Positions 20,075 to 47,000 of a DNA stretch of 64,000 nucleotides are shown piece by piece (position 1 is the stretch's first letter; each line of letters opens with the position of its first letter). The translations under genes were made by a program, and so were the position numbers. The stretch is from Cenococcum geophilum 1.58 (lineage: Eukaryota; Ascomycota; Dothideomycetes; Gloniales; Gloniaceae), in assembly GCA_001692895.1 (NCBI GenBank), contig KV748187.1, positions 1,933,715 to 1,997,714 of the forward strand, read 5' to 3'. The notes below the pieces were generated by a model. That model saw only the letters and a program-made list of their open reading frames with translations. It was not told the DNA's origin and did not search any database.

Positions 20075-23000
20075 TTATTTATATAACTTATACGTTAAAC
20101 CTCTGTCTTACTATATAGTTACTCTAAATCAACCTAACTCTAACCCTCTTATACTCGCTATCTACACTAGTCGGCCTGATAACTAATATATAGTACTCCT
20201 TAATATCCAATCTATCCCTATCCTTATTAAACTTCTTCCTAATAACAATACATCGTTCCTTAAAAAGATCCTTATCCTCCTTAACATTATATTATATTTA
20301 TCCTCTTTTTATTTTACTAAAATCTAAGATAGCATAATCTTTCCCATCTAGTTCCATTATATAATCCCGAAACTCCCTTACGTTAGTAATTAGTGTAAGT
20401 TTATGCCCCTTATTAAACTAGAGGTTATTAATCCAATTAACTTTGCTAAAAGAGATATCTATAAACTAAATGCCTCTATTATATGCTATATATAACCATA
20501 ATGGCACATTCTGGTTTTTATATACAATCCGCTCTATCTTATTATTAGACGTCTACCATAGGAGATTCCTGTAAAGGTACCGCTAAAAGATGCCGTATCT
20601 ACTTTAATACCTTAAAGCGCCTGCAATGCGGGCTTCTAACCTAGATATTATAATAGCTCTGTCAGTCTTCTCTAAGAGGTCGCGCTTTAAGTAGTCCTTA
20701 AAAAGAAAGTAAATAAATTCTATAGTACGTTGGCAGCCTAACTTAAGGAGCCAGTTTAAGAAGTTTAGGTTAAGTATAAAAAACTTCCTTTAATATAAGC
20801 TAAGGAGTAAAACATCTAAGTTAGGAAGATATTAGTCTATTAGATATTGCTCAAGCTCTTACCTTTTCAGTCTAGTAAGATTTTCGCAGTAAACCCCTTT
20901 ACCACATTCCCAGTATGTCTAATTATTACTAAAATGGATAGTTTGTCGTAATAAAACCCTTTTTTATATTACCTATGCTCGTGTATTAAGCCGAGCCTTC
21001 TCTATATTATTGTTAAAATTATCTATACTGGTGTAGATATAGAATCGCCTGCCTAAGGCATCTTAAACAAAGATATACTTAGTGCTTATATTTCGCTTAA
21101 GGAATCCCACTTTTAAATAGACAGCCAAAGTTATAGTAATTGTGCAGTAAGCTAAAGAGAAGACCTTTTCCATATGCCTAGATTCGCGTTTTTAATCTTC
21201 TTTATTATCCTTATATTGGATTATATAGAGTAAGTTAATCCAGAGGTATAGTACGCGAAGTTTTTAAGTCACTTTAATAGCGTCCTAGAAAGTTTTTAGT
21301 AGGTCTAAGATACTAAATCCTTCTAGCCGTTAAATAATGTTATCCTAAGTTATATAAAATTATTTCTTATCTTTAATTAGAAGTTCGCCCCAGTAATGGG
21401 ATAAAGTAATATATTTTCCTCTATCTATTTATATAGCATAATTAAGACGCAAGACATTAGGATTATTATCTATATTACTAACATAGAGGAGTCTTATCGG
21501 CAATTCTGTATTAGATTTAATATAATGCTTATTGCAATTATAGGACTCGTTATACTAACAAAGCTATACGCGAAATAGTGCAAATTATATAGGACTTTTA
21601 GCTTTGGGTAAGACTGGGAAGCTAATCTAGATATTGTTATTAGGATTAGCTAAATATTCTATGCGTAAAGATATATAGTAAGTAATAGCCCTACCTAGCG
21701 CATGTAAGGAGTTAAAGATACTAACTTAAATTAGAACATAACTAGAGAATGCGTGGCCCCCCCTCTTCTATTTTTAATGCTGACTGTTTTCTAACTATTT
21801 AAATATATAATTTATTATCATTATAGTAGCGTTTAAGTATATAGAGGAGTAGAGCGCAGAGCTAGCAACTTTTTTCAGCAGCACGGACTTTAGAAAGATT
21901 AATATTGCAGCTGGCAGCTATAATAGTACTATAGTAGGCACAATACTGGACTGGGGCAAGCTGGCTTAGTAGCGTGCTAAATGGCAAGCTTTTGACGAAA
22001 TCCTAAGCAAATGTATTGTCAAAGGTATAGAGCAAGTTGTCGGGCTACGTCCGTATTAGTACTGGTTTAAGCGATCGCGTATAAGGGGCATTCGCAGATT
22101 TATATACACTCTGCACTAATAAATGGGACAAGGTTAGCAGCAGCCATATATTTTAGTATTTGTAGGTCTACTTACTCGCTACACTAACAAATAGGATAAG
22201 GTTAGCAGCAGCTATATATCTTGGTATTTGCAGGTTTACTTACTCGCTACACTAATAAATAGGACAAGGTTAGCAGTAGCCGTATATCTTAGTATTTATA
22301 GGTCTATTTACGACCTATACTAACAAACAGGATAAGGTTAGCAGCAGCCGTATATCTTAGTATTTATAGGTTTACTTATATCCTACACTAATAAATAGGA
22401 CAAGGTTAGTAGTAGCTATATATCTTAGTATTCGCAGGTCTACTTATATCCTATACTAATAAATAGGACAAGGTTAGCAGCAGCCCGTATATTCTCAGTA
22501 TTTGTAGGTCTACTTATAAACTACACTAATAAATAGAATAAGGTTAGCAGCAGCCGTATATCTTAGTATTTGCAGGTCTACTTACACTTTATACTAATAA
22601 ATAGGACAGGGTTAGCAGCAGGCCGTACATTTTGGTATTTGTAGGTCTACTTATAAACTATACTAATAAATAGGATAAGGTTAGCAGCAGCCGGATATAT
22701 CTCAATATTTCGCAGGTCTACTTATATTCTATACTAATAAACAGGACAAGGTTAGCAGCAGCCGTATATCTTAGTATTTGTAAGTCTACTTATATACTAC
22801 ACTAATAAATAGGAACAAGGTTAGCAGTAGCTGTAATATCTTAGTATTCGTAGGTCTACTTATAACCTATACTAATAGAGATAGGACAAGGTTAGCAGCA
22901 GCTGTATATCTTAGTATTTGTAGGTCCTACTTATAAGCTATAACTAATAAATAGGATAAGGTTAGCAGTAGCCGTATATCTCGGTATTCGCAGGTCTACT

Positions 23001-24748
23001 TATATCCTATACTAATAAATAGGACAAGGTTAGTAGCAGCCGTATATCTCGATATTCGTAAGGTCTATTTATATTTTACACTAATAAATAGGACAAGGTT
23101 AGTAGCAGCCGTATATCTCGATATTCGTAGGTCTACTTATATTTCTACACTAATAAATAGAAATAAGGTTAGCAGCAGCCGTATATCTTAGTATTTGTAG
23201 GTTCTACTTATATCCTATACTAATAAATTAGGATAAGGTTAGCAGCCAGCCGTATATCTTAGTATTTATAGGTCTACTTATAATCCTACACTAATAAATA
23301 GGACAAGGTTAGTAGTAGCTATATATCTTAGTATTCGCAGGTCTACTTATATCCTATACTAATAAATAGGACAAGGTTAGCAGCAGCTATATATCTTAAT
23401 ATTTTTAGGTCTACTTATATTCTATACTAATAAATAGGACAAGGTTAGCAGTAGCCGTATATCTCGGTATTTGTAGGTCTACTTATATCCTACACTAATA
23501 AATAGGACAAGGTTAGCAGCAGCCGTATATCTCGGTATTTGCAGGTTTACTTATAAACTACACTAATAAATAGGATAAGGTTAGTAGCAGCTGTATATCT
23601 CGGTATTTATAGGTTTACTTACTCGCTATACTAATAAATAAGATAAGGTTAGCAGTAGTTGTATATTTTAGTATTCGTAGGTCTATTTACTTACTACACT
23701 AATAAACAGGATAAGGTTAGCAGCAGCTATATATCTCGGTATTTGTAGGTCTACTTACTCGCTATACTAATAAATAGGACAAAGTTAGCAGCAGCCGTAT
23801 ATCTCAGTATTTGTAGGTTTACTTATATACTACACTAATAAATAGGATAAGGTTAGCGGCAGCTATACATCTTAGTATTTATAGGTCTACTTATATACTA
23901 TACTAACAAATAAGACAAGGTTAGCGGCAGCTATATATCTCGATATTTACAGGTCTACTTATATACTATACTAACAAATAGAACAAGGTTAGCAGCAGCC
24001 GTATATCTTAGTATTTGTAGGTCTACTTACGACCTACACTAATAAATAAGATAAGGTTAGCAGTAGCTATATATCTTAGTATTCGTAGGTCTACTTACTC
24101 GCTATATTAACAAATAGGACAAGGTTAACAGCAGCTATACATCTTAGTATTCGTAGGTCTACTTACTTGCTACACCAACAAATAGGATAAGGTTAGTAGT
24201 AGCCGTATATCTTAGTATTTATAGGTCTACTTACTCGCTACACTAACAAATAGGATAAGGTTAGCGGCAGTCGTATATCTTAGTATTTGTAGGTCTACTT
24301 ACTTCCTATAACTAAGTATATTAGTAGAATATCTAAATTATACTTTAGGAACATTTACACTCTATCCTTACACCGTTAGCTAAAATAATATTATCTAGTT
24401 GCTATTAAACCCTACCGTAAACAATCTATCCTCTTATGTATCTTAACCCATATTATCCTCTAAAGCTTTAATTAAATCTATAGGATAAGCTGTATTTATT
24501 ATAGTAGCTGTAACTTAAGCGCCTTTATTGGGCGCTAAGGATAACGGCTCTGTCTATACGGCTTCCTTTATTAATTAATTTTATTTTTTAGATTTTCTAA
24601 GCCTAAAAAGGTACTGGAGATGTTAATGATAAGTTATAGGCTCCTCTCTTACTACTAATACCTCCGCTAATAGCCCGGAAGGTGTTAAGTTACTAGGAGA
24701 ATTAGTTTTGCCCTCTAGTGCCTTTCTATATCTAAATAGTTTAGACAT
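20075..24748 (-). pseudogene. HET1: HET-domain (heterokaryon incompatibility) gene with giant intron array
   Basis: Minus-strand gene of the fungal HET family, which mediates non-self recognition and incompatibility cell death. Exon 1 (24748-24303) starts M-S-K-L-F-R-Y-R-K-A and stays in one frame for 148 codons up to a GTAAGT. An array of about 32 intron-like units follows (24302-22111). The downstream exon has a Cys motif S-C-x-L-C-A-L-L, then the HET core: Y-I-T-L-S-H-Y-W-G, L-P-K-T-F, Y-L-W-I-N-L-L-Y-I-I-Q, A-Y-C-T-I, R-A-x-V-I-x-K-R-V-L, then Q-T-Y-W-E-C-G. The C-terminal region typical of the family follows, including M-E-L-D-G-K-D-Y-A-I-L and E-Y-Y-I-L-V-I-R-P. Many stops and D-to-N changes show RIP decay. 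Exon 1 ends in phase 2; the downstream frame cannot be joined with certainty by eye. Confidence 0.82.
22111..24302 (-). repeat. Intron-like tandem array 1: about 32 units of 68 bp, inside HET1
   Basis: Read on the minus strand (the HET1 coding strand), each unit starts GTAAGTAGACCTA, has a GCTGCTAACC branch-like block near position 40, and ends TTAGTGTAG. Three variable bases follow before the next GTAAGT: 65+3 bp. Most intervals are exactly 68 bp (for example GGTTAG at 22132, 22200, 22268, 22336 and 22404), with small insertions mainly between 22480 and 23290. In many units the first G of GTAAGT is A, which corresponds to CpA-to-TpA on the plus strand and thus to RIP. The array starts exactly where exon 1 of HET1 ends and its last 3' site is GTGCAG at 22116-22111. 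Confidence 0.9.
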
Positions 24749-25640
24749 TTCAATATTCGCTTACTTATAACTGTTAGTCTGTAGTTATTAGGGCCCTATA
24801 GCTAGGCTTTATTTCTAGGCGATAAGTGCATAGAATGTGTTGGATTTTTACTTAGCAGAAACTAGTATTACATAAGCATGCGGAGAAAGCTAGGTATATA
24901 AGTTCGTTGCCCTATACGGTAACGTAATATACGGGGTTTTGCTTAAGCCCTAAGTTTTACTTACGCTAATAGACCGCCTGCCTTTTCCTAGTTATTTACT
25001 ATATTAAGGTTGCGGCGGGTGTTGTTATGTTGGGCCATTAAGGCCATATTAGACTAATTTGTATATAAATACTGGGGAATGGCGTTTTGGCGGCACCGAC
25101 GCTAGCCTACGCGTGTATTGCTAAGCTCTGCACTTTAGAGGTGCTGCCTACATATTAAAGGTATAGGCGCTCCCGTAGGCGGGTCTTCCGTAGAGATTAG
25201 CACTAGCCCTATAAATTTGGCGTGACGTCTTATCTTAGCTAAGAGATGCATTATATAGATGCTTAGAGTTTTCTTAATAACTTTACTGGTGGATAGGAAA
25301 GCTGTATAGAAATTTTATCACTAGATTGGGATTTTTTACGCTATTTACTTAAAAGGAAAAGTAAAGGTTAAAGATAGGAGCGAGGAGGTTCGGGTAGACC
25401 CTGAAAATAAAGTACCTAATTTTGGGCGCTTAAAATATCCAAAATTAGGACCCTCTTAGAAGCTAAAAATAGCCCTTCATTTACACCTAAAACTAAATAC
25501 TCAATTTTTAGAGCCTACTTAATCCCCCTCTTTCTTTCTCCCTAAGTCTAAGTAGCAGCCTTAGATATAACTTATATAAAACGGCGTAGGGCAACTTATT
25601 AAAGCGTAGGCCGGTAAGGCTTAGCGAAGCGTACTAACTA
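24749..25640. other. HET1 upstream flank with a conserved block at 25155-25217
   Basis: No gene recognised. This is the region 5' of HET1 (minus strand). The block at 25155-25217 (TTAAAGGTATAGGCGCTCCC, then GGCGGGTCTTCCGTAG) recurs at about 48463-48525 in the same orientation and at about 42890-42955 inverted, marking it as part of the HET-cassette arms. It is GC-richer than its surroundings. The 25220-25640 part shows nothing further. Confidence 0.55.
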
Positions 25641-25643
25641 ATT

Positions 25644-25648
25644 AAAAG
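25644..25648. repeat. Target-site duplication AAAAG, left
   Basis: The five bases AAAAG immediately precede the 5' LTR and recur at 33597-33601 right after the 3' LTR, as expected of a Ty3/gypsy integration. Confidence 0.85.
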
Positions 25649-26073
25649 TGTTACGGACGCTTTAAGTACAATGTTATGACTACTTAGAGAGGAGTCGGAA
25701 GAAGCTAGTTGGTTGATACAGGCACGGTCTAGGATGGAACCCGTGGATCCATGTGACGAGGAATGGTAAGCAGAGTCACGTGATGTGATCTGTATGATCT
25801 GTATGATCTGTGAGATCTGTTATAGAGCGAACAGAGCAAATAGAGCAGACAGAGCAACAACTTTCTTAGGAGTACGGTTGTGTATTTAAGGACCCTTAGT
25901 CCCTACCTAGATAGTTCCTACCTCGTAGTAATTCTTAGAATATAATTAGAGTTAATCTATTAGGTAACCACTCCACCAGTTATTATTACGTTATTAACTT
26001 TTATACTTACATTTCCTATACACCTAGCCTATTAATAAGCCTATCGTAGTTCTTGCTATAAGGTTCCGTTATA
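25649..26073 (+). repeat. 5' LTR (425 bp)
   Basis: The LTR starts TGTTACGG and ends CCGTTATA (CA mutated to TA). It aligns with the 3' LTR over its full length, and the differences are nearly all transitions. This copy keeps many more G and C bases than the 3' copy. Confidence 0.92.
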
Positions 26074-26117
26074 CAATTACTATCTAGTTATAGTATTAAT
26101 ATAAGAAGTCAAACAAC

Positions 26118-27165
26118 ATGCCACCAAAAGCAGCCACTATGACGCTATTAATGGCAGCAACTACTTTAAGGACAGGAGGTAATACTAGTATAGCAGATAC
26201 TAACTTATAGCAACCTATAACGGTCGGATAGCTATAGGAAATAGTTAACTAGTTAATAGCTAACAATACAGTGTTGGAAGAAAGACTTAATGGGATAGGA
26301 GCAGCAAAGATTAAGCTACTATTAATTAAGAGATTTATAAGAGAGAGGTTAAAGCTTAAAGGATTCCTTACGCAGATGCACTTTAAGGTCTTATAGAAGG
26401 GAGCAAAGTTACCTACACCCATAGATCGGATAGCCTACGCAGGACTATTCTTATTAGGAAAAGCACTTAAGTGATTTAAACCTTACCTTATAGAGATATA
26501 GGTAAACGGAATAACAACCACTAACTAAGACATGCGATTTATATTCTTAAGTTAGGAAGGATTCGCAGAGCGACTTACGCAGATGTTTAGAGACCCGGAA
26601 GAAATAACTACAGCGGAAAAAAAACTCCAGAACCTTATATAACGAACTTTAGCAATTAAGTATACGACACAGTTCCAGACACTAGCAACATAAGTAGAGA
26701 ATAATAGGGCGCTTATGGCACAGTATAAATAGGGACTTAAGGCTAAAGTCTAGGACGCGATTATCCTAATAGAAGATGCGGACACCCTAAGGGAACTAAT
26801 AGATTAAACAATTAAGATTAATAATTGGATCTACTAAAGGGAACAGGCCAAGAGAGGCTAGAATAGAGTTCTATAGTTATATAAGGCGCAGAGTACGCAA
26901 CAACAAAAGCCAAGTTAAAAATTATGGTATGGTGTAGAGCTAATGGACCTAAGTGGTACTAAAGAAGCCTATAAGAGATAGAGCAAACTATGGAAACCTA
27001 GAGGACAAGGATTAAGTAATTAAAGGTCTAAGGAGCAGAAGCTAAATTAGGGATCTTAGTAGTAGAAGATATTCAGGCGGACTCTATAGTAAGAGAAATG
27101 GTTTAAAAAAGGAGCTTGCATAAATTGCAAAAAACAGGGTTATTACATTAGAGACTGTAGAAGTA
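26118..27165 (+). pseudogene. Gag of the 25.6-33.6 kb chromovirus (decayed)
   Basis: The ATG at 26118 gives M-P-P-K-A-A-T-M-T and a frame continuing to a CCHC zinc knuckle at about 27117-27160 that reads C-I-N-C-K-K-Q-G-Y-Y-I-R-D-C: C-x2-C-x4-H-x4-C with the histidine changed to tyrosine. Size and layout fit a gypsy Gag, the capsid/nucleocapsid protein that packages element RNA. Stops are TAA/TAG at expected Gln or Trp positions (for example V-L-stop-K-G). Confidence 0.8.
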
Positions 27166-27169
27166 GGTA

Positions 27170-29170
27170 GAGTTATTACGTAGTAAAGGGTATAAGACTA
27201 GCAGACGATATACACGTATAAAGGGACGATAATGTGCTGTAAGGAATAAAAGAATGTTTAATTAAAAGTTTTGTGTTTTGTTATAACAACATATACCAAA
27301 TTTATAAGGACGCTAAGTATGGCGTAAGCTATTAGCTATAAGAGCCAGCACCTATAGGATGTAGAGGAACTAACGAACTAGTTCGCAGATCGGATATTAA
27401 GGACGATAAATTCGACCTAGGTAAAACATTCTATAATAATAAGGCAATAAGGGCCGCTTACTAGGAGCGAGTAAACCTTAGAGATGTTATACTAGAGGCA
27501 AAGGATAATTCTACTACAGAATAGGGAATATTAGTAGGGATTAAAACCTCACTAGATATGATGTCTATCGCTTCGCGAGACGCAAAAGAAGTAGGACAGT
27601 GAACCACTTTGGCACTCGATAAAGGCAAAAGGCCAAAGGCTTAAGATTCTTAAGATGAGATAAAAGACGACTAAGATTCTTAAGACAAGATAAGGTAAGC
27701 TTAAGGACCTATAACGGACAGAAACCAATAGAGTAGAGCAGTAGTTTAGTTTAAAGACATACGAATAAGCTTGGGATAAGAATTCCTAACGGTATAAGAT
27801 TCTTAAGACGAGATAAGTAAGATTTAGGACTCTTAAGACGAGATAAGGACACTAGTTAAGCCTAGTTGGACTAAGGTAGGGGCTAAGCTTAAGTTAGAAG
27901 TAAGCTCGGGACTAAAGAACTTAAGGAGTTAAGAATTTGGAGTATGAATTAGGACACCTATAGATAAGAGGTAAAGAGCTTCTTTATAGATTAGAGAATC
28001 TGCGGTATAAATAGTAATTAGACTAGGAGACGAATATATAGACCTAGAGGATTTACTAGTTAAACGAAGTATTCGGACTAAAGATTAAAAAATTAATACT
28101 AGGATTAAGAAGTAAGACGACTTTAAGGATTAGAGCGTAAGGCGCAAACTAAAAGAAACTATAGAAGAGTTTAGGTAAAGAATTATTGTATAGCAAGAAC
28201 AGAAACTAGATAAGAAATCTAGTATATTGGGACGTATAAAGGACAGAGCACTAGTATAAAAAATTATTAATAGGCTAAGAGTAGGCATACTAAGAGCTAA
28301 GTGGCTTACTAAACTGGAAGATGAAGAGGATTTAGGGATTCTTATTAGGTTTGAGGAATAACATACTAAGGGCTGTTATAATGCAGTAATAAGAAGATAT
28401 TTCCTTACGGATAGACCGTATATACTCTAGCAGCTATACTAAAAGTGGTATAGGCAAAGGCATAATAATAAGTAGGAAGATTTCTATATGTGGTTAGATA
28501 AAAAAGTTATTTAGGACCACCTAATTATAGAGAAGGCTATAACGCATATTAAAGGAGCCTTAATTATAACGTTAAAGGATCTAGAGGAACGTTTAGAGGA
28601 CTAGAGAAGCGAGAAACGCATCTTAGTACCTGTAAATAAAGTTGTAACGTTCAGATTAGCACGACAAAGGTTTAAACTTAAGGATAAAGATAAGCTAAGA
28701 GTTGACCTAAAGTACCTAGTATACTATACGTTATTATGGATTACGTGCGTGGACGATATATATAAAATGCATAAGAATCCGAAAGAAAAGAATTGGAAAT
28801 ACCCTATAAGGATATACTGGATAACGGATGAGTAATAGTATAGGAATGCTAAATATATATATAGATGGCATCCAGCAGAGGTCCAAGAGGAAGGAAGTTT
28901 AGTACTTTAACTAGGAAGATTCCTTATAGAAGAATGCTTAGATGGATAATAGTAGTAGGAATGCCCAGAAAACACGTATCTATAGTATATTAAAGATAAA
29001 AAGCAAACTAGGTATTGGCTAAAGAGTGAGCCAAGTGCACTAGGATTAAGTAGCTAACAGTTGGGAAAAGTAGAGGCCTATAGGACTAGAGGGAGCTAGT
29101 GGTAGAACCTTAGACCCTTAAAGGAATTTAAGAACGACACCTAAATTTACAAATTAATTGGTAAGATTAG
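27170..29170 (+). pseudogene. Region between Gag and protease, with repeated DSQDEI peptide
   Basis: About 2 kb of fairly open frame separates the zinc knuckle from the protease. It has at least four copies of a short motif, D-S-stop-D-E-I (probably D-S-Q-D-E-I), at about 27643, 27672, 27795 and 27822. The later part (28160-29100) is rich in Lys, Arg, Glu and Gln and could be helical. I do not recognise a known domain. It could be an extended Gag C-terminus or an additional coding region. Confidence 0.5.
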
Positions 29171-32100: not shown

Positions 32101-32460
32101 TAAGAAATTGGACCATGTTAGGCTAGGACCTTTTAAAATTATATAGAAGATTTCACTGGTTATGTTTAAGTTAAACCTACTAGCCAAAATAAAGATCTAC
32201 CCTATATAGTATATTGCAATGCTAGAGCTAGCATATAGGAATGTTAAGCCACCGGTCTATGAAGCAGATACGTATAGAGGATAAGAAGAAGACGAATAGT
32301 AAGTATCGAAGATCGTTAATTATAAGGACATTAACGACGAAATATGGTACAAGGTTAAGTGGATAGGCTACACTAAGACTACCTAGGAGCTACTAGAGAA
32401 TTTAAAAAATGCTATAGGAAAGGTATAGGAGTATTAGAAGAGATTAGGTTAGGCAGTATT
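29170..32460 (+). pseudogene. Pol of the 25.6-33.6 kb chromovirus: PR, RT, RNase H, IN, chromodomain
   Basis: Protease: A-L-I-D-S-R-V-T at 29181-29205, where D-S-G-A is expected (G to R, A to V), then V-L-G-M-P near 29410. [15 protein letters not shown] near 29808, I-D-Y-R-Q-L-N, and the catalytic box A-Y-L-N-N-I-I-I-Y at about 30143 (Y-L-D-D expected). RNase H: G-I-D-N-T-R-A-D-A-L-S-R near 30909. Integrase: I-V-D-K-L-I-K-W and I-I-L-D-R-D in 31470-31620, then T-D-G-Q-T-E-R-L-N near 31700. A chromodomain at about 32300-32440 reads W-Y-K-V-K-W-I-G-Y; such domains bind methylated histone H3K9 and target integration to heterochromatin. Inactive because of stops and lost aspartates. Confidence 0.88.
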
Positions 32461-33150: not shown

Positions 33151-33171
33151 AGATAAAGAGGAGGGAGATAG

Positions 33172-33929: not shown

Positions 33930-34200
33930 GGCCGCTTATCTTGCCCTCTTATTAGCCAAATCTTTCACCCTCTCATTGGTTAAATCTTTAAGCCCTCTTA
34001 TTAGTTAAATTTTCTTACCCTCTTATCTATTAAATCTTCGAGCCCTCCTATTAGTTAAATCTTTAAGCCCTCTTATTTATTAAATATTTAAGCCCTCCTA
34101 CTTATTAGATCTTTAAGCCCTCTTATTTATTAAATCTTTAAGCCCTCTTATTCGTTAGATCTTTAAGCCCTCTTATTTATTAAATCTTTAAGCCCTCTTA
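33930..34200. repeat. Minisatellite, about 25-bp unit (AAGCCCTCTTATTNNTTAAATCTTT)
   Basis: About 10 tandem copies with core GCCCTCTTATTTATTAAATC. The same family lies at 18820-19190 (direct) and 42405-42660 (inverted). Confidence 0.85.
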
Positions 34201-34839
34201 TTAGTTAGCTTTTTACCTCTTTAGGCTAATTAACGTATTCTTTTTGGAATTTCTTTACGCCGCCAGTATAATTGGTTAGGAGGTATAGGTAGGAGAGAGG
34301 ATCCTTAAGTATATTTACTTATTAAAATCGGCTTATTATTTACTTAGGTGTAAATGTTTTATCTTATTTATAAAGTGGATTATAGCTTTAACTATACTAA
34401 TATTTAGGAAACGCTATAAAAATAAGGGTGTGGCTAAAGCGGGTTAGCTGCCCTTTTTACTAGCGCTAGAAATATAGAAGAACCTTAAGTACTATCCTCT
34501 ATTCTGGTGCAAAATAATATAATATAGTAAGTTAAAATAGCAACGCTACTGCGATATAACTATTATTAGAACCTAAGAATATAATTATAATAGAGTAAGT
34601 TAGCGCTCCCTGCTTAGCGCGGTTAAAATCCTTATACGGTACTAAAGTAAAAGTAGTATAGTGCTTATATTACGAAAGGTACTTCTTTTAACCTTAGAAG
34701 GTATATAATACACAACGGACTAGTTCTTTGGTGTATTAGTTACAGCGGTTAAGTATAGGCTTAGCTTTAATATTCCCTTTCTAGGCAACCCTTTCTACCT
34801 CTTTACCTCGCACCTCTATACTTCTACACTTTTTTACAT

Positions 34840-34995
34840 CTCTACCTATGGCTATACTCGTGGCTCTACCCGTATCTCTACTTATAGCTCTACTTATAGC
34901 TCTACTTATAGCTCTACTTATGCGTTTACTCGTGTCTCTACCTATATCTCTACCTATATCTCTACCTATATCTCCTTATATCTTCTTATATATCT
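34840..34995. repeat. Minisatellite, 12-bp unit (TCTACCTATATC / GCTCTACTTATA)
   Basis: About 12 copies of a 12-bp unit. An inverted copy of the same tract lies at 41640-41790 in the right arm. Confidence 0.8.
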
Positions 34996-35149
34996 CTTTA
35001 CACGTCTTATAGGGGGTTAGATAGAGAGGTATAGAGATATAGACGTAAATATAAAGAAGTAAAAATACGGAGATATAAAGGTATAGAGGCGCCTCTGCGC
35101 CTCTAGGGGTAGGCCGTGCTAAATTAAGCTACGATTTTAATAAATAAGC

Positions 35150-38100
35150 TCTAAGCCACTAATTTTGCACTAGCAGAAGAAAACTTAGTAGAAGATTTGG
35201 ATAGTAAAGTTACTGCTAAGAGTTACTATCTAGATCCTAACCGCTAAAGAGACTATATAGTTTATTATACTAAGTAGCCTTAAGCTCTTAAACTAGACTA
35301 AGGCATGAGGTTATATACGGGCGTAAAGTACCCGACATTTACTACAAGATTATTCGCCTAAAGAGACGTTAAATCACCGATATCCTTGAGATCGTTTTAT
35401 TTGGAAAGACTCGGTAAGCCTTTAATTGGATAGCAGTGCCAAGATTAAGAAATACTCTTAAATGATATATTATTGGTCCACGTAGCTCTTAGCTTAGCAA
35501 AAGCTAATAGTAAAACGCGATACCTTAAAGTCCTTCTATTACCTACCTAAGCCTTAAAAACCTTTAACTGTTAACTAAACTAACTTACTACACTGTCCTG
35601 CGACTAAAGAGTAACATGGTCAGTTCTATAGGTGGACTCTTATTTATTGCCATAGCTAATATATATTTAACTCTGGCTATAGGTTATAAGTAGCTTGCCT
35701 ATATATAGTATAAGTTCTCTAGTTAACTATGCCCTATTTATTAATATAGAAAGTAAGTACAAAGTAAAGAAAATCTAACTACTACTAACCAGATTGGGTT
35801 TATTACTGCGTATTTTCTGCATTATTACTAGCTAACTACGCCTACTTAACTATTATAGGGAGTAAGTAAATCTGTGAAATGGAGAACGGGTAGGCTAAAG
35901 TTAATAGCTAATTACGTCTTGTTAATTTCTATAGAGAGTAAGTAAACCTAACTAGAGTGGAGAATATAGAAGTAATAGCTAATTGTGTTCTCTTAATAAT
36001 TATAGTTTATTAGTAAACTGGATAAAGTGACTATTGAATTAGTAGCTAACCCTAGCTACTTAGCTGTTACAGGAAGTAAGTTAGCTTAGTAAAAAGGGAT
36101 TTTCTTTATTAAACTAATTGCTAACGTTATCCTCTTCGCGGCTATAGTTTATAAGTAAATTACTATAATAGTATCTAGTGTAAATATTAAATTAATGACT
36201 AACCGCGTCTCTTTAGCGGTTATAGGATATAAGTAAACCCGGATAGAGTAGAGTATGCTAAATTAATAGCTAACTGCGTCTCCTTAATGGTTGTAAGATA
36301 TAAGTAAACCTAGATAGAGTAGAGTATACTAAATTAATAGCTAACTGCGTTTTTTTAACAGTTATAGCGTATAAGTAAACCCGGATAGAGTAGAGTATGC
36401 TAAATTAATAGCTAACTGCGTCTCCTTAACGGTTATAGTATATAAGTAAACCCGGGATAGAGTAAAAGTATGCTAAATTAATAGCTAATTGCGTCTCCTT
36501 AACGGTTATAGTATATAAGTAAACCGGATAGAGTAAAGTATGCTAAATTAATAGCTAACTGCGTCTCCTTAACGGTTATAGGCTATAAGTAAACCTAGAT
36601 AAAGTGGAGTATACTAAATTAATAGTTACTGCGTTTCCTTAACGGTTATAGGGTGTAAGTAAACCTAGATAGAGTGGAGTATACTAAATTGTTAGCTAAC
36701 TATATCTCCTTAATAGTTATAGGCCGTAAGTAAACCTAGATATAATAGAGTATACTAAATTAATAGCTAACTGCGTTTTCTTAACGGTTATAGGCTGTAA
36801 GTAAACCTAGATAAAGTAGAGTATACTAAATTAATAGCTAACTACGTCTCCTTAACGGTTATAGGGTGTAAAATAAACCGGATATAGTAGAGTATGCTAA
36901 TTATAGCTAACTACGTCTCCTTAATAGTTATAGGCGTAAGTAAACCTAGATAGAGTAGAGTATACTAAATTAATAGCTAACTGCGTCTCCTTAACGGTTA
37001 TAGTATATAAGTAAACCTAGATAAGAGTAGAGTTATACTAAATTAATAGCTAACTACGTCTCCTTAACGGTTATAGGATATAAGTAAACCTAGATAGAGT
37101 AGAGTATACTAAATTAATAGCTAACTACGTCTCCTTAATAGTTAATAAATATAAGTAAACCTAAATAGAGTAGAGTATGCTAAATTAATAGCTAACTATG
37201 TTTTTTTAACGGTTATAGGGTATAAGTAAACCTAGATAGAGTAGAGTATACTAAATTATTAGCTAACTATGTCTTTTTAACGGTTATAGTATATAAGTAA
37301 ACCCAGATAAAGTAGAGTATACTAAATTAATAGCTAACTATGTCTCCTTAACGGTTATAGTATATAAGTAAACCCGGATAGAGTAGAGTATACTAAATTA
37401 ATGGCTAACTGTGTTTTTTTAATAGTTATAGCGTGTAAGTAAACCTAGATAAAGTAGAGTATGCTAAATTAATAGCTAACTGCGTCTCCTTAATAGTTAT
37501 AGCCCGTAAGTAAACCTAGATAGAGTGGCGTATACCAAATTAATAGTTAACTATATTTCTTTAACGGTTATAGTATATAAGTAAACCTAGATAGAGTAGA
37601 GTATGCTAAATTAATAGCTAACTACGTCTCCTTAATAGTTGTAGTATATAAGTAAACCTAGATAGAGTAGAGTATACTAAATTAATAGCTAACCGCGCCT
37701 CCTTAACGGTTATAGGATGTAAGTAAACCTAGATAGAGTAGAGTATACTAAATTAATAACTAATTATATCTTCTTAGTGGTTATAGGCTGTAAATAAACC
37801 CAGATAGAGTAGAATATACTAAATTAATAGCTAACTGCGTCTCCTTAATAGTTATAGCGTATAAGTAAACCCGGATAGAGTAAAGTATACTAAATTAATA
37901 GCAAACTACGTCTCCTTAATAGTTATAGTATATAAGTAAACCTGGATAAAGTAGAGTATGCTAAATTAATAGCTAACTACGTCTTCTTAATAATTATAGC
38001 GTATAAGTAAACCTAAATAGAGTAAAGTATACTAAATTAATGGCTAACTATGTCTCCTTAACGGTTATAGCCTATAAGTAAACTTAGATAAAGTAAAGTA

Positions 38101-41100
38101 TACTAAATTAATAGCTAACTGTGTCTCCTTAACGGTTATAGGCCGTAAGTAAACCTAGATAGAGTGGAGTATACTAAATTAATAGCTAACTATGTCTCCT
38201 TAATAGTTATAGGATGTAAGTAAACCTAGATAAAGTGGAGTATGCTAAATTAATAGCTAACTATATTTTCTTTATAATTGTAGTATATATATATATTTAG
38301 TTAGAATAGCGTATATTAAATTAATAGCTAATTATAACCCATTTTTACCGACTATAGTTAGTAAGTAAACTTAGTTAGAGTAAAATATACTAAATTAATA
38401 GCTAATAATAGCTTCTTAATGGCTACAGAATGTGAGTAGATACGGCCTAAATAAATATACTAAATTAATAACTAACTATATCTTCGTAACGGTTAAAGCG
38501 AGTAAGGAAACCTATAAAAAGTAAATTTTTTTTATTAAACTATTAGCTAACTCTTAATATTTTTTATTATAGATTGTAAGAAGATAAATCTTAGTAATAT
38601 GTCTCTTTTTGTAAGATTAGTATCTAACTATATCTTTATAATAATGTTTAGGATATAAATAAGCTTTATAGAATAGAGCTTTTATTTTACTAATTTTTCT
38701 TTAATAAATACAGGCTATAAGTAACCTTGATTAAAGTATAGTATATAGACTTATTAAATAGCTAAACACGTTTCTTAATTATAGATAGTAAGTATATTCT
38801 ACCTAACTAAAATATATATCTCTATAAACTTAATAACTAACTATACCTCCCTAACCGCTATAGAATGTAAGTAGCCGTATATAGGGCATATTTTGTTAGG
38901 TTTATAGTTAATATCCCTTTTTTATTATTATAGGCTGTAAGTAAACCCTATAAGAAATTAGTATATCTTTTTACTAAAGCAATTACTAACTGCATCTTTT
39001 TAATAATTAAAGGCGGTAAGTAAATTTGGTTATAGTATAGTATACTAAGTTAATAGCTAACCGGGCTTTATTAACGGCTATAGCTAGTAAGTAAGCAGAA
39101 CTAGACTAAAGCACGCTTCTTAATATTAGCTAACTACGTCTTTTAAGTAGTTAAAGGAGGTAAGTAAACCTACCTAGAATAGGCTGTATTTCTTTGCTAA
39201 ATATATAGCTTACCTTGCCTTTTTTAACAGCGGTATAGACTTAGGAACGCGCCAACGGAGGACGAGAAAGTATTAGACTTTGCGACCTATTTTGCAAAGG
39301 AAGTTGCTTATCCTTATTTAATGCCTAAGATATAATTAAGGCTATATAGTTCGTGTTAGGATGTCCCTATTCGATGGTTACTCAAATCCCTAAGACACGG
39401 GTATACTCTCTTTAATAATTTTAAAAGGGAATCTGGAGAGTCATGCGATCTTTATAAATTGATACATTGATCTATTGGCGGCGGTGGCGTAAAGAAGATC
39501 AACATTGGCATCGCACCGCAATTCTTAATGATTGAAGCGGTGAACGTGGGAGATTATATCAATTACGGCTTTCTGAAGCTCTATGTAGATTCAGGTATAT
39601 TTATTAGTATTGCGTTTCCATCCTAAAGCGAAACGAGGCCTTGCTAACCAAGTTATAAATGGGCTTAGAAGCCGCAAGCATGGGTTTTGAAATAGGGCTA
39701 CCAATTCTGCCTAAAGCAGGAGGGGAGTTACATATAATCTTACTCCGTAAATGGCTTCGAGACTGTAACGAAAGTTATAGTGATTATAGAATTGCCTCTA
39801 CTAAAGATAACAAATTGCTAATAAGAGTGCTCGACATCAGAGATACGGAAAGCCCAAATTAGTTACTCCTTTATAACACTAAAGGCAAATAAGGAAAATA
39901 TATTACTCTATCTCATTACTAGGGGGAGGCTAATCCCCTTTCTACTATAAAAGAGAATATTAATGCGCACCGTAACGTAATAAACTTTAACGATTTACCG
40001 AAAACATTTTAAGGCGCTGTGGTTATTACTAGAGGGCTCAACGTATAGTTCCTCTGGATTGACTCGCTTTGCATAATCTAGGACGATGCCGATAACTAGT
40101 AACGCGAGTCTGCAAATATGGAGGAGGTATTTGCTTCAGCATACTATATATTTGCCGCTACGTCCGCCAAAGACTCTAACGAAGGCTTCCTTAACCCTCG
40201 GCTAGATAAACAGCCTGTTAGACTTATAGACGCAAGCATAGGCACCTCCTTTAGTGTATATACCTCCGAAGTAGGCGGAACTTTCAATTATAATATAGAG
40301 AACAGAGTGCTGAATAAACGCGGTTAGGTGTTATAAGAGCGGGCCTTATCACCCCAGACGATCTATTTCACTATAACTTAAACCTACTAGGAGTGTAGAT
40401 CTATAATTTGCTGTGAAAACCTCATTTAGATAGCCAAGTGAGTGTCTTCGTCTATAGTTCATGTCCTTGTTAGAAGGTTTATGGCTTTCTTATATTCCGA
40501 TCTTATAATACTTCTTCCTAATTTTATTGCTACATCTACTCTCCTAGATGGAAGTTATTAGTTCGTATGCTAACATGCCTTAATTTTACGGAGAAAGACC
40601 CTTAAACTTGCTTAGCAGCTCCTAATTTCCAATAACCACCTTAGGGCCTCCTTTAGGAGGTGCAGCCTTTGCGTTTAAGAACATCTTTACTAGTTACTCC
40701 AAGCGCGCCCTTACATACCAGAAGGATAGGCTATATACGATTGCCGGACTTAAACGTAGGCTGATGGATTTCTATAAGATAGGAAGTTCGTATAGCATTA
40801 TACACTATTGCCTTAGTAGAAGCCTGCTCTGGCAACGCCTCAGGACGGAATAGTTAAAAAAGATAAGCGATTACAGAGTTAAGGTAGTTCTATTATGGTC
40901 CTAGATGAAATATAAAGGGAAAATCCGTTATAGAAGTATTTCTAAGGTTAATACTAGTTGGAATTAAGACATTAAACTCATCCCTCCTAGTTTAAGCGGC
41001 TAAGAATAACGCGTATTAGAGGCTCTAGGGCGCAAAATTTTGCAAAGATATTATATTAAGCCGGAGCCTAATACGGCCTACAAAATTAATGATGCAGAAG

Positions 41101-41411
41101 GTCATCTAGTTGGCTATATTAAGTTTGACCATAAAGATTAAGTTGACGTTAGATATCTGAGATTTATTATTATTACGTAGTATAAATTTAAAAGCTAGAC
41201 GGAACTTAACAAAGATACCTTAAAAGATTTTGCGGATATTTCTTAGGGTGGAGAGTTAGAGTGGCACAATCTTTGTTATATTTTAGTGGTCTTATATATA
41301 GCTTTTAAGTAAGGGTATAAAATAGAGGAGTACTATAGACTCGGTATAGGAGTTATCTAGGGTAGATATCTGTCGTTCAGTAGACAACCACGGATTTTAA
41401 GGGTGGCGTAA
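35150..41411 (+). pseudogene. HET2: HET-domain gene with giant intron array
   Basis: Plus-strand HET-family gene. An upstream exon (about 35150-35631) stays open apart from TAA/TAG (starts N-F-A-L-A-E-E-N-L-V-E-D-L, ends near T-W-S-V-L). The intron-like array follows (35632-39230), then the main coding part. HET hallmarks: L-L-R-K-W-L-R-D-C-N-E-S near 39745, Y-I-T-L-S-H-Y (39900), L-P-K-T-F, F-L-W-I-D-S-L-C-I-I near 40050, M-E-E-V-F-A-S-A-Y-Y, the G-F-L-N-P block, and L-N-K-R-G ... E-R-A-L-S-P near 40315. The C-terminal part has S-K-R-A-L-T-Y-Q-K-D-R-L-Y and ends at a TAA at 41409-41411. It has fewer stops than HET1. The start codon is not identified. Confidence 0.82.
35632..39230 (+). repeat. 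Intron-like tandem array 2: about 45-50 units, core unit 71 bp, inside HET2
   Basis: Each unit starts GTAAGTAAACCTAG (often ATAAGT), has AATAGCTAACT near position 40 and ends GGTTATAG, followed by three variable bases: 68+3 bp. In the core (36060-38300, about 31 units) the sites fall every 71 bp, for example 36229, 36300 and 36371. The edges hold longer, diverged units (35686, 35753, 35862 and 35938 on the left; 38300-39230 on the right) that still keep GTAAGT, CTAAC and a TAG. The first possible intron is 35632-35682 (GTGGAC...TATAG). The array lies between the HET2 upstream exon and the HET coding exons, in the same orientation as the gene. Confidence 0.9.
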
Positions 41412-41504
41412 GCTTTGGCAAAAATGTTTTGTTTAAAGGTAGAATAGTAGGTAAAGGTTAGGAACAATTTAGAGTTTCAGGTATATAAAAATCTAGAATT
41501 ACTT

Positions 41505-41560
41505 AAAACTATAAATTGCGCCTTTTTTTTGCTGTTTATAGTTAGTAAGTAAACTTAAGT
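41505..41560 (+). repeat. Orphan unit of array 2 downstream of HET2
   Basis: TTTATAGTTAGTAAGTAAAC at 41535-41554 matches the 3' end, 3-base spacer and 5' start of the diverged right-edge units of array 2 (compare 38344-38366). It sits after the HET2 stop and before the inverted-repeat arm. Confidence 0.55.
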
Positions 41561-41566
41561 ATATCT

Positions 41567-42892
41567 TTTAGCCTACGTTTATATCTTTATACCTTTCTAC
41601 CTAACCCCTTATAAGACGTGTAAAGAGATATATAAAGAGACGTAAGGAGATATAGGTAGAGATACGGGTAGAGATATGGGTAGAGATATAAGTAGACGCA
41701 TAAGCAGAGCTATAAGTAGAGCTACAAGTAGAGACATAGGTAGAGCTATAAGTATAGCTATAGGTAGAGATATAGAAAAGTGTAGAAGTATAAAGGTGCG
41801 AGATAGAGAGGTAGAAAGGGTTGCCTAGAAAGGGAATATTAAAGCTAAGCCTATACCTAACTGCTATAACTAGTACACTAAAGAATTAGTCCGTTGTATA
41901 TTATATACCTCTTAAGGTTAGAATAAGTACCTTTCGTAATATAAGTACTATACTACTTTTACTTTAGTACTATATAAGGATTTTAACCGCGCTAAGCAGG
42001 GAGCGCTAACTTACTCTATTATAATTATATTCTTAGGTTCTAATAATAGTTATATTATAGTAGTGTTGCCATTCCAACTTACTATATTATATTATTTTGT
42101 ATTAGAATGGAGGATAGTACTTAAGGTTTTTTTTATATTTCCGGCGCTAGTAAGAAGGGTAGCTAACCCGCTCTAGCCACACCCTTATTTTTATAGCGTT
42201 TCCTAAATATTAGCGCGGTTAAAGCTATAATTTACTTTATAAAGGAAATAGAACATTTATACCTAAGTAAATAATAAGCCGATCTTAATAAGCGAATATA
42301 CTTAAAGATCCCCTCTTCTACCTATACCTTTTAACCAACTACACTAGCGGCGTAAAGAAATTCTAAAAAGAGTACGTTAATTAGCCTAAAGAGGTAAAAA
42401 GCTAAATAATAAGAGGGCTTAAAGATTTAACAAATAAGAAGGCTTAAAGATTTAATAAATAAAAGGGCTTAAAGATTTAATAAATAAGAGGGCTTAAAGA
42501 TTTAATAGATAAGAGGGCTTAACGATTTAATAAATAAGAGGGCTTAAAGATTTAACTAATAAGAGGGCTTAAAGATTTAACAGATAAAAGGGCTTAAAAA
42601 TTTAACTAATAAGAGGGCTTAAAGATTTGACCAATAAGAGGGTAAAAGATTTAGCCAATAAAAGGGCAAGACAAGCGGCTACTAAAGTTTTCTCGCGCGG
42701 TACTAAACACCTTTTGAAACTACGTTCCTCCAAGCAAAACAAGAAATCGCCCCTAGAGGTGGCTCCGCGAAGCCTAGAGGAACTCTACTCCGACGACTAT
42801 AAATAAAAGGGTTGGTTTAAAATACGTCAATAGCGCTAAATTTAAAAGTGTAGGTGTGATTAAGAGCCCTAGGGTTAAAAAGCCCTGGTTAT
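41567..42892 (-). repeat. Long inverted repeat, right arm flanking HET2
   Basis: Reverse complement of the left arm at 33770-35052, block by block: 12-bp minisatellite (41640-41790), unique part, GCTAACCCGCTCTAGCCACACCC motif region (42150-42172), 25-bp minisatellite (42405-42660), then the CGACGACTATAAATAAAAGG part and the AGAGCCCTAGGGTTAAAAAG end. It carries an additional GGAGGAACGTAGTTTC segment (about 42700-42740, inverted) that is also present at 18740. Confidence 0.82.
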
Positions 42893-43190
42893 AGGGCTAG
42901 TGCTAATCCCTGCGGAAGACCCGCCTATAGAAGCGCCTATTTAATGTGTATCTATTAACAAGGATATAGGTTAGGGGTTTTAGCACAGTTTAGTTAACTT
43001 AGTAACCACGCCAAGCTAAACGCCGAGTAGCGGAGGTAGTGCATTACCGCCATAATACTACACTTAAGACCGTTTATTCCAACACTAACTACAGTTCCTA
43101 TTTCCTCTATTCTTTAATCCTAGGAAGTAGACCCTTAATAAAGAGGGTAGCCTAAGCGGGTCGGCGCCCTCCCTGCTAGTGCTGGCAAGA
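42720..43190 (+). repeat. Inverted repeat flanking HET3, left arm (overlaps HET2 right arm)
   Basis: Reverse complement of about 48195-48670. From the shared CCTAGAGG part it passes through the block with GGCGGGTCTTCCGC (inverted), the TATCCTTGTTAATAG part, the AGTAGCGGAGGTAGTGCATT part and GGAAGTAGACCCTTAATAA, and ends in a GCGGGTCGGCGCCCTCCCTG motif (43157-43176). Its left third is shared with the right arm of the HET2 inverted repeat. Confidence 0.75.
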
Positions 43191-44020
43191 TAATAATAAA
43201 GCTAGTCTAATCGCAAATAACTATATAGAAATTCGGGTTATCGCTAGGCAGTAGCATGCAACTTATTAACCAATTATTGGCTAGCTAAGGCGACTTTAAC
43301 GTATATATGTATGTATGTATATTCTATTATAGCTATACACTATTTAGGGTATAGGCCGTTATAGAGCGCTAACTAAATACTTCCTGCTATTAACAGGCGA
43401 CTTTAATAAGGGTGTGGCCGGTACGGGTCGGCCGCCCTCCCTACTTATAGTGGCGATATCTAGCACTAAATCACTTTAATTATTGTTACATATAAGCTGT
43501 AACTATGCTTATATAGCCAACTACCTCCACATTTCGCACTAGCACTATAGTTGTAAATTTTAGACCTGTTTTAGACGCTGCTACTATCCCTAAATATAAT
43601 ATACTATCTACCTATCTAACCTCTACTCTTAATTTGCCAAACTAGCGATATCTAATATCGGCTTCTATAAAATGTATATCGACTTTACCGTTATATCTTA
43701 AGTAGTGTTAATCGACCGTGTAAGAGTACGTTGAAGAGGTTATATAAGGCCAAACGGCACCATAAAGTAGTATAAATGCACTTGGGCAGCGTAGAGGGCA
43801 GAGTAAGTAGTATAGTTAGGTATATGTGTGGGGGAGTAAGAGTGATCGCTAAGGTTTTATTTATAACGTGGGGCGCGATAAGAGGATACAATAATGCATA
43901 TATAAAAGCCTTTATAGTGCATATACAGCGCCAAGCATATTTCTTAGCAGAGAGGGGCTTATAATTTGTCTGCACCCTACTCTACTTAGCTTTAATGCTT
44001 TTTTAGCTTATATTAGCGTT
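43191..44020. other. HET3 upstream flank; no gene called
   Basis: A TATGTATG microsatellite lies near 43303-43320. A second copy of the arm motif, GGTGTGGCCGGTACGGGTCG (43411-43430), is inverted relative to 48195-48245. Two overlapping open frames on opposite strands at 43691-43975 have no recognisable protein family, and I do not call either. Confidence 0.4.
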
Positions 44021-47000
44021 ATGCGCATTGCAGAGAATTAAGTGCTATAGCGTTAAGGGCGTAGTAAGCGTCGAGTTTTAGAGGTATTGCTGTCTTAGCC
44101 GGGCCTTACCCCGCATAATAAATCCCGCATAGTCCGCAATCGTAAACTTACTATGGTGTAATTTAACACTAATTGCTAGAAAATGGCGTTTGCATAGGAA
44201 CAAGCTCCTTCTTAGATTTACAATAACTTTATAGACGTATGTACAGAGCTTAGCCATCTAATACTAATTCTCTAACGGCAATTCTAAAATATAGGAGGTA
44301 TATATCGCTATATAAAAAGAAGAATAACTACTAACTATGGTCTGCTTGTTGGTGTAGATAGTAAGTTAACCTATTTAAGATGGACGAGATGCGATAACTA
44401 CTGATCGTAGTCTGCTTGTTAGTGTAGAGAGTAAGTTAACCTATTTAAGATGGATGAGATGCAATAACTGCTGACTATGGTCTACTTATTAGTGTAATTA
44501 GTAAGTTAACCTATTTAAGATAGATAAGATATAATAACTACTAACCGTAGTCTGCTTGTTGGTATAGGATATAAGTTAACCTATTTAAGATGGATAAGAT
44601 ATAATAACTGCTAACCGTGGTCTACTTATTAGTGTAAAGAGTAAGTTAACCTATTTAAGATAGATAAGATATAATAACTACTAGCCGTGGTCTGCTTATT
44701 AGTATAGTTAGTAAGTTAGCCTATTTAAAATAGATAAGATATGATAACTGCTAACCGTGGTCTGCTTATTGGTATAAAGAGTAAGTTAACCTATTTAAGA
44801 TAGATAAGATGCGATAACTGCTAACCGTGGTTTACTTATTAGTATAAAGAGTAAGTTAACCTATTTAAGATGGATAAGATGCAATAACTCCTAACCATAG
44901 TCTGCTTATTAGTATAGAGAGTAAGTTAACCTATTTAAGATAGATGAGATATAATAACTACTAACTATAGCCTACTTATTGGTATAGAGAGTAAGTTAAC
45001 CTATTTAAGATGGATAAGATATAATAATTGCTAACCGTGACCTACTTATTAGTATAGAGAGTAAGTTAACCTATTTAAGATAGATAAGATGCGATAACTG
45101 CTGACTATAACCTGCTTGTTAGTGTAGGTGGTAAGTTAACCTATCTAAGATAGATAAGATGCGATAACTACTAACTATGGTCTGTTTGTTAGTGTAGTAG
45201 GTAAGTTAACCTATTTAAGATGGACAAGATATAATAACTACTGACTATAATCTACTTATTGGTGTAGAGAGTAAGTTAACCTATTTAAGATAGATAAGAT
45301 GTAATAACTACTAACCATGGTCTGTTTATTGGTATAGTGGGTAAGTTAGCCTATTTAAGATAGACGAGATGCAATAACTACTAACTATGGCCTACTTGTT
45401 AGTGTAGAGAGTAAGTTAACCTATTTAAGATGGATAAGATGCGGTAGCTGCTAACTATGGTCTACTTGTTGGTATAGTAGGTAAGTTAACCTATCTAAGA
45501 TAGATAAGATGTAATAACTGCTGACTATAGTCTGCCTATTGGTGTAGAGAGTAAGTTAACCTATTTAAGATAGACGAGATATAATAACTGCTAACCGTGG
45601 TTTGCTTGTTAGTGTAGTAGGTAAGTTAACCCATTTAAGATGGATAAGATATAATAACTGCTGACCGTGGTCTGCTTATTGGTGTAGAGAGTAAGTACTT
45701 TCTTTTTAGGTCTTTAATTTCTTTATATGTTATGTTGATTTAGGGCATAACTTTAGACATCTTAGATGCCTTTTATTAACAATCAGTTTACCGCGAGGTT
45801 TTTTAGTAACTAGCCCTGGAGCACATCTTCTGAAAATCCCGTCTCTGCTTAATTGTATTTATACTACGCAGATCTTATATCTTTAGACCACCCTAAAAGT
45901 GCCTTTAAATTACGCACTCTAAGAAATAATTGTCTTCTCTATAACCTGCTCTTTAATATAGTCCGGTGTAATTATAGTAGAGATTATTAACAGGTTTCTA
46001 TAATTAGAGATAATTTAGCCCTTATAGTTACTATAGATGGTCTATATATTATTCGCCTTTATACCGATCTAGGTTTATCTCTACCCTCCTTTAATATATT
46101 TAACTATGTCGCTTACTACTTTATATTAGCAAAAGAACTATTAACAGACGGCAGTTACAGTATCGAAATTAGACCTCCTATTTTATAAACAATTAATCTC
46201 TTTTAAATCCGTAGTACTTTATATTTCTAGTTACTGCGTAAATGGCTTTGGGAGTGTAACTAAAGTTATATATACAACCGGTAAATACAATACTAGCTAA
46301 TAAGAGTTATCTTTATTGGAGGTCTAGATCCTAATAGATTAATACTCTAAGAGCAAGGGAGTAGAGAGGACTATTTTGTGCTTTTGTACTACTGGGGTAA
46401 TCTAATGGATAAGGAGAAGAAGCGGATCTGCACTACTTTAGAAAACTACTATAATCGAGTAAAGGAGGGATTTAGCTATAATGATCTACTAAAGACATTT
46501 TAAGATGCGGTTTGAGTGACTTAAGAACTTAGTAAAGAGTACCTCTAGATTAATTCTCTTTGCATAATTTAAGGAAATGAGGAGGATTGGAAAAGAGAAG
46601 CTGGGCGTATAGAATAGGTCTTTACCTCTACCTACTGCACTATTGCCGCGAGTTCGGCGCCTAATTGGAGAGATGGCTTCCTTAAGCGGAACTTAAGTCC
46701 TTAGTATTTTTAGATCTAAAGTAGCTCCCGCAGACAGGTTTATATCTATAATAATACACACAACTATAGTAAAGATGTGGATGAAAGCCCCCTTAATAAG
46801 AGAGCTTGGGTACTATAGGAGCGAGTGCTGTCCCGCAGAACTATCCATTTTTCTACAAAACAGACGTATTGGGAGTGTGCGGAAGATATACTTTACGAAA
46901 ACTTTATAAGGCTACAATAGTAAGGCTAAAGTTAAAGGTTATAGTAGAGTGATATACTCTAACATTGTATTCTAGCCCACTAAGAAGGGAACATTTTATT

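Follow-up and report, generated by a model that had tools for sequence, protein, structure and literature searches.

Codon-sized exons have been described in the nank (NACHT-ANK) genes of Tuber melanosporum, which carry 3-bp micro- or mini-exons (Iotti et al. 2012, as cited in PMC4986451, PMC3689799, PMC10197012 and PMC9815663). The accessible part of PMC11121469, meanwhile, states that functional microexons are undescribed in filamentous fungi. A window of 64,000 nucleotides (the whole stretch of DNA analysed, from contig KV748187.1 of Cenococcum geophilum 1.58) contains three tandem arrays of intron-like units, separated by three nucleotides and belonging to HET genes. In this species the HET and NACHT families are expanded, according to the part of PMC5023957 that was available. 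The arrays are best read as rows of one-codon microexons which are spliced in frame and encode a hypervariable N-terminal segment of HET proteins, and this reading is given a probability of about 0.83. They are dead in the window and apparently alive elsewhere in the genome.

The likeness to the Tuber genes, as far as the citing papers describe them, lies in the tens of 3-bp exons, the large fungal gene family of self/non-self type and the changes by whole codons without frameshift. By contrast, most of the C. geophilum arrays examined are found in HET-domain genes and are N-terminal, whilst those of Tuber are in NACHT-ANK genes and C-terminal; the fungus is a different one, with heavy repeat-induced point mutation (RIP), and alternative splicing has been reported for Tuber. 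The original prediction knew of no precedent. This holds for HET genes as far as the search extended (titles and the beginnings of abstracts, with subscription papers mostly outside coverage), where no such arrays are reported, but the Tuber microexons come before it. On these partial sources, codon-sized microexons are already known, and what is new is their presence in HET genes, in another fungus and at the N-terminus, with homogenised introns beside diverse codons.

Other systems share single features. The WD-repeats of Podospora het-d and het-e evolve in concert, with four hypervariable codons per repeat, a variable repeat number and RIP-inactivated pseudogenes in the family (PMC1805685). 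From what could be seen of that source, they are the nearest parallel as regards hypervariable codons in repeats under concerted evolution; their constant part is protein-coding, however, whereas in the present arrays it is an intron that stays constant and a whole exon that varies. The introner-like elements of Dothideomycetes are near-identical spliceosomal introns present in many copies per genome in unrelated genes, and in Zymoseptoria tritici other intron duplications, including tandem ones within a gene, make up <1% of single intron gains (both from the accessible text of PMC4457414). Unlike these elements, the present arrays are tandem and occupy one homologous position in related genes. 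Schistosome micro-exon genes are described, in the excerpts available, as having many short exons (3-81 bp); their introns are long and are not known to form a tandem array of one intron. In a stwintron one intron is nested within the splice site of another, whereas the units here are adjacent, 3 nt apart.

In the mechanism proposed, an array would consist of genuine spliceosomal introns lined up behind a short first coding exon and ahead of the exon with which the conserved HET part begins. The introns would be removed singly, each 3-nt exon adding one amino acid; we infer that the microexons are included in the mRNA. Since every exon is one codon, the variable segment could change its length by whole codons without a frameshift. 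More speculatively, alternative skipping of microexons could give rise to numerous isoforms, and the segment could have a role in recognition.

The three arrays of the window

The arrays of the window, termed A1, A2 and A3, and the gene parts that go with them are as follows.

24416..24451, minus strand: first coding exon of the A1 HET gene, a mutated copy of 36 nt (12 codons) in phase 0
22111..24302, minus strand: A1 tandem array, RIP-mutated, with about 32 units of 68 bp, each a 65-nt intron unit plus a 3-nt exon
20082..22044, minus strand: remainder of the A1 HET gene, with many stops, starting in phase 0 after the last intron of the array; tblastn match to P0055 at 65% identity
about 35753..39238, plus strand: A2 tandem array, 68-nt core units plus 3-nt exons (71 bp), diverged units at both edges, RIP-mutated
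39668..41357, plus strand: A2 HET gene remnant; tblastn match to P0058 at 42% identity
44183..44236, plus strand: probable first coding exon of A3, mutated, 54 nt, phase 0; read by eye and common to the paralogue L048
44237-44294, plus strand: intron-like stretch behind the probable first exon of A3
44295..45756, plus strand: first 3-nt exon of A3 and its tandem array (array from 44298), 67-nt units plus 3-nt exons (70 bp)
45691-45756, plus strand: last, divergent intron of A3
45757..47678, plus strand: remainder of the A3 HET gene, phase 0 behind the last intron, many stops; tblastn match to P0001 at 58% identity

The periods of 68 bp (A1, minus strand), 71 bp (A2) and 70 bp (A3) are obtained alike by direct reading, Tandem Repeats Finder and unit splitting, and in all three cases tblastn finds HET similarity downstream on the same strand (20082-22041, minus; 39668-41357 and 45775-47678, plus). 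The claim of three sense-oriented tandem arrays in HET genes is thus borne out, although each array lies in the same gene upstream of (N-terminal to) the HET domain rather than inside it. The spacing had been called exactly 3 nt. With lengths of 0-15 nt permitted between matched units, 3 nt is found at 27 of 29 junctions in A1, 31 of 32 in A2 and all 19 in A3, the exceptions measuring 4, 4 and 2 nt. A count of spacer lengths from the window alone also peaked at 8 and 9 nt under a strict pattern and at 4, 8, 9 and 12 nt under a tolerant one; it is confounded by extra TAGs upstream of the true unit end and was not used. Contrary to the description of regular units ending in TAG, A2 is not uniform: many of its edge units, at 0.55-0.8 identity to the core, are variable in length, some without the TAG end, albeit with the spacing kept (three boundaries in the unit list, set by eye, are uncertain).

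GTAAGT had been described at every unit start, yet is present at only 9 of 28 in A1, 14 of 35 in A2 and 18 of 19 in A3, the remaining starts being mostly ATAAGT. The latter is confined to junctions that follow a T (37 of 46, versus 0 of 36 after another base), which indicates RIP-like damage. Among 5' sites after T, the G is missing from 17 of 18 in A1, 19 of 27 in A2 and the single one in A3, and the HET part of A1 holds 12 TAG and 15 TAA codons. Being RIP-damaged, the window copies are RIP-inactivated relics.

Outside the intron arrays, 25-bp tandem repeats are present at 18838-19176, 33943-34207 and 42408-42667. Their consensus units look related, the third array being inverted.

Occurrence in the genome and host genes

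The original prediction had suggested a search for similar arrays in other fungal HET genes. In the 177.2 Mb of genome searched, the pattern GTAAGT-N45..75-TAG-NNN-GTAAGT gave 629 matches and its reversed form 17, which rejects a chance origin of the pattern; a few of the listed matches are unrelated simple repeats. At least about 30 further places, on many contigs, carry arrays, some of them known from a single junction. This is a lower bound, as arrays were sampled rather than collected exhaustively and the places were filtered by triplet. The units fall into families of 66, 68, 70, 71, 73 and 79 bp, which by eye, without alignment, have little in common beyond the splice signals and the 3-nt spacing. 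Families are common to several loci and, where they could be placed, homologous HET genes carry them at the same position; the search was for tandem arrays.

The set examined first comprised 20 array loci, the three of the window and L039-L055. HET similarity was found in the fetched flank of 14 of the 20, in all 14 on the strand of the array and with the array upstream, so that the random orientation named beforehand as a ground for refutation was looked for and is not what these loci show. PF06985 (HET) was identified in L052, L054 and L044. Two loci, L049 and L055, come near the host type of Tuber, adjoining ankyrin-repeat sequence on the same strand (NACHT was not looked for). In L055 (G000:C49:786000-792500, minus strand), stretches of a 79-bp array alternate with two ankyrin-repeat fragments, and the array together with an ankyrin block seems to have been duplicated. 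At L039, L041, L047 and L050 no HET was found in the flanks searched and no gene was assigned.

The reverse approach started from ten HET loci (L056-L065), chosen from 75 matches of P0089 for their score or few stops. Six of them (L056, L057, L059, L062, L064 and L065) have an upstream array, whilst at L058, L060, L061 and L063 none was seen within the stretch fetched. P0089 itself has an N-terminus of array-like appearance, and the genome contains no close match to it (52% at best).

An ordinary minisatellite that resembles introns by accident would account for tandem copies that vary in number. Such variation is seen between A3 and L048: window positions 43900-47700 and L048 (G000:C5:657000-664500) are recent segmental duplicates whose arrays have their codons in the same order towards the 3' end and differ in unit number (19 versus 26 triplets read). 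A minisatellite origin is nevertheless highly improbable, given that unit families of unlike length agree by eye in little but splice signals and spacing, that the diverged edge units of A2 retain the spacing, and that all 14 arrays with HET in their flank stand upstream of it on its strand.

Reading frame and the one-codon exons

A1, L042, L043, L045, L051 and L062, all of the 68-bp family, have in common a 36-nt first exon upstream of the array, followed in the last five by GTAGGG, GTAGGC or GTAAGG. Of these exon copies, that of L062 alone has kept its ATG and contains no stop. It reads MGQETWEDSLFQ, which by eye resembles the N-terminus MGAEKWKDSSFQ of P0064 from Lepidopterella palustris. 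On the other side, the post-array exon opens directly behind the last TAG in phase 0 in seven genes (A1, A3, L044, L052, L062, L064 and L065, judged by eye against homologues; A2 is not among them), and in all seven it contains a loosely conserved block around W-x-Y-x-x-D-N-x-F. In P0064 just two or three residues separate the first-exon block from this second block. With a first exon upstream and a phase-0 exon downstream, the array thus occupies a place between two coding exons, in frame.

Among the live-looking genes is L052 (C134:25500-34500), a HET gene whose matches are free of stops and to which the gene remainder behind A3 is paralogous. Its 48 array units all end in TAG and start with GTAAGT in 44 cases (the others being GTAGGT, GTAAAT, GTGAGT and GTATGT), and a branch-point-like CTRAY motif is present in 46 of the 47 regular units listed. 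All 48 triplets are sense codons, limited to GAA, CGA, TTT, TTC, AAA, CGG and AAT, and give the peptide RERFEKEFRRFEFEEEEEREFFRFREEEFERERRREEEEEFEEFEEEN. The G of GTAAGT is kept at 9 of 9 sites after T although 133 of 472 intron-internal TpR sites are A (Fisher P 0.069, not significant alone). In L054 it is kept at 4 of 4, yet that array is little mutated overall (14 of 132 internal sites). These small numbers hint that the splice sites of L052 are in use. Among annotated proteins, the closest relative of the L052 HET protein comes from Zopfia rhizophila (70%), followed by one from Endocarpon (60%). Directly downstream of the HET gene, at 7284-9000 of L052, lies an NLR-like neighbour, a TPR-repeat gene with a partial patatin match.

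L065 (C85, minus strand) departs from the one-codon rule in an instructive way. Its exons, which were read by eye as the locus falls outside the family consensus of the script, are AAT, CGA, TTTGAT, TTGGAT and CTA (3, 3, 6, 6 and 3 nt), each followed by a 66-nt intron. Exon 1 is MALTWIQEGFK with the 5' site GTTCTT (both assigned by eye), and after the last microexon RDWRYLEDNDFAKRFF follows in phase 0. The joined reading, MALTWIQEGFK-NRFDLDL-RDWRYLEDNDFAKRFF, by eye resembles the N-terminus of the array-free homologue P0042. The length exceptions are still multiples of three, which fits a reading frame and not a fixed steric spacing.

The genes of L052 and L065 appear to be transcribed and spliced, since database sequences match them with downstream introns removed. 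P0001, a protein from a 2,268-base contig, equals the downstream product of L052, its first residue excepted, with two introns removed. Its source label is lgn, which we take to stand for assemblies of public sequencing reads. P0040 (15 member sequences, 19 contigs) equals the L065 gene over 141 residues, 32 before and 109 behind a removed intron, the comparison covering residues 1-141 of 537 as given by the fetched DNA. A longer six-frame match of the L065 gene holds one TAA. Sense triplets are also found throughout the arrays of L064 (C45; 19 triplets), where the HET matches contain 3 and 7 stops, and of L054 (14 triplets), whose 5' side looks unrelated. At 68-550 of L064 a higher-order codon repeat of four units can be seen (GAC AAG GTA ATA / GAC AAG GTA ATG).

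Among the exons matched in 21 arrays, 631 of 635 measure 3 nt, the exceptions being three of 4 nt and one of 2 nt (in A1, A2 and L055). Most loci were found by the 3-nt pattern and are thus biased for exon length, but the same length is seen in 66 of 66 matched exons of L056, L057, L059, L062 and L064, which were found through the HET gene and not by spacing. The 587 triplets of 16 arrays contain 25 stops, where independence of the three positions would give 45.4; the triplets are repeated types, few per array, and so are not independent draws. In some single arrays stops are more numerous than expected, for example with 4 against 2.3 in L045, 2 against 1.1 in L043 and 5 against 4.3 in L046.

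Two HET paralogues without arrays bear on the same question. L058 (C1) has, where an array would stand, a continuous exon stretch, PIKRKEKDYYYPKYNRLFEEYEDDEEEDPKRYRLEREDEEEKESYERERRRLDKLSKDDW running into DWAYDADNVFARRIF, of 60 codons up to DDW, in which codon choice is one-sided (AGA for 9 of 9 R, GAA for 14 of 15 E, TAT for 7 of 7 Y and CTT for 4 of 4 L). G or C stands at the third codon position in 8 of 60 codons, as opposed to 40 of 101 in the sequence that follows (Fisher P 3.6e-4), where TAC is used for 4 of 4 Y. To judge from its codons, the stretch looks like an array after splicing, either copied back or ancestral. L060 (G000:C25:298700-301700, minus strand; about 2508-2700 as oriented) has one or two introns at the array position, about 27 nt apart and by eye similar to the 68-bp unit. 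It is possibly the starting state of an array.

Several observations weigh against in-frame splicing of single codons. L054, otherwise little mutated, has an in-frame stop right behind the array. Nor does phase 0 stand out by its stops, which over the 16 arrays number 25, as against 13 for phase 1 and 82 for phase 2. No protein or transcript record was found across any array: a search with the array-peptide region of L052 returned only P0009, which starts behind the array, and one with the L058 segment returned no record. P0001 and P0040, which start 67 and 90 residues past the array, are uninformative on it. Two similar records, P0055 and P0058, which may or may not belong to this genome, start past the array as well. 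The missing records are weak evidence, since repeats or alternative forms could break short-read assembly, but they are the main gap.

The same absence, together with the lower count of stops in phase 1, would suit an array excised whole, as a single long intron, or by a small number of jumps, with untranslated triplets and a spacing set by the steric needs of chained splice sites. Steric limits are indeed expected for splice factors bound 3 nt apart. This possibility is distinctly unlikely in view of the 6-nt exons of L065, which fit the reading frame, the 48 triplets of L052 without a stop, the array-like codons that L058 carries as a continuous in-frame stretch and the phase 0 of the 3' side in seven genes. 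Splicing one by one with a codon per unit, as originally proposed, is supported by L052, by the shared phase and by the longer exons of L065, and the microexons in print for Tuber count in its favour too.

Homogenised introns and diverse codons

The introns and the codons of an array have evolved in different ways. Compared with the consensus of their own array, the 34,190 intron sites of 16 arrays show a transition in 3,272 cases and a transversion in 103 (0.3%), whereas the triplet sites of the same arrays show 622 transversions in 1,761 (35%); units counted were of regular length with similar ends, and those holding N were left out. RIP context (G/A after T, C/T before A) accounts for 190 of the 257 intron transitions in L052. 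The introns of this array are as similar to each other at a lag of 24 units as at a lag of 1 or any between, with star-like differences and without a gradient along the array, and no linkage between intron variants and triplets was seen (P 0.53 and 0.19). Within a family, the consensus introns of separate loci likewise differ mainly by transitions, with 4 transitions and no transversion between A2 and L039, 3 and none between A3 and L048, and 17 and 1 between L043 and L044; the pair L041 and L046, with no transition and 1 transversion, is the exception to the excess of transitions. The codons of A2 and L039 differ despite near-identical consensus introns. In L052 the main codons (GAA 25, CGA 10, TTT 8) differ at 2-3 positions, without intermediates.

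Plain tandem duplication followed by point mutation does not easily give this contrast. It calls for intron-only conversion, for selection against converted codons or for the invasion of an old exon by introns. In the last case, one intron would have been copied in an introner-like burst into every codon boundary of an old exon, of which the triplets would be what is left. The star-like introns of L052, lacking a gradient and unlinked to the triplets, agree with such a burst, as does the continuous stretch of similar make-up in L058. It is unlikely all the same: we know of no mechanism for insertion at every third base over dozens of steps, third codon bases by eye obey array-specific rules unlike those of normal coding sequence, and the short arrays of L065 and L062 have no long old exon.

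Introner-like elements have a stable predicted secondary structure. When seven array units were folded as RNA and compared with shuffles, L054 reached a z of -3.5, and the six others lay between -0.7 and +0.4 (the L044 unit being cut one base late). In the L054 unit at 927-991, a little-mutated member of the 68-bp family, the fold joins the 3' end by base pairing to the sequence that follows the 5' site.

It is attractive, if rather doubtful, to consider the arrays as a codon library with a built-in copy boundary, in which homogenisation is limited exactly to the introns, so that the one-codon exons escape it and diversify. The introns might be homogenised, for example, by gene conversion with cDNA copies of excised intron RNA as the template. 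If true, this would explain how near-identical introns, within and between loci, stand beside freely differing codons. Each HET gene would then have a combinatorial N-terminal segment of its own, read out further by exon skipping.

The arrays extend to the HET genes of another fungus a little-known splicing architecture which, in the literature found, is described from only one truffle gene family, and this presence suggests its repeated origin or persistence in self/non-self genes. With the spliced-out part homogenised and roughly 100-fold more transversions in the part retained, they make a clean case of this contrast, and they provide a natural test of how a spliceosome copes with dozens of exons of 3 nt. 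Segments of this kind will probably escape gene predictors, and the N-termini of HET genes may therefore be misannotated.

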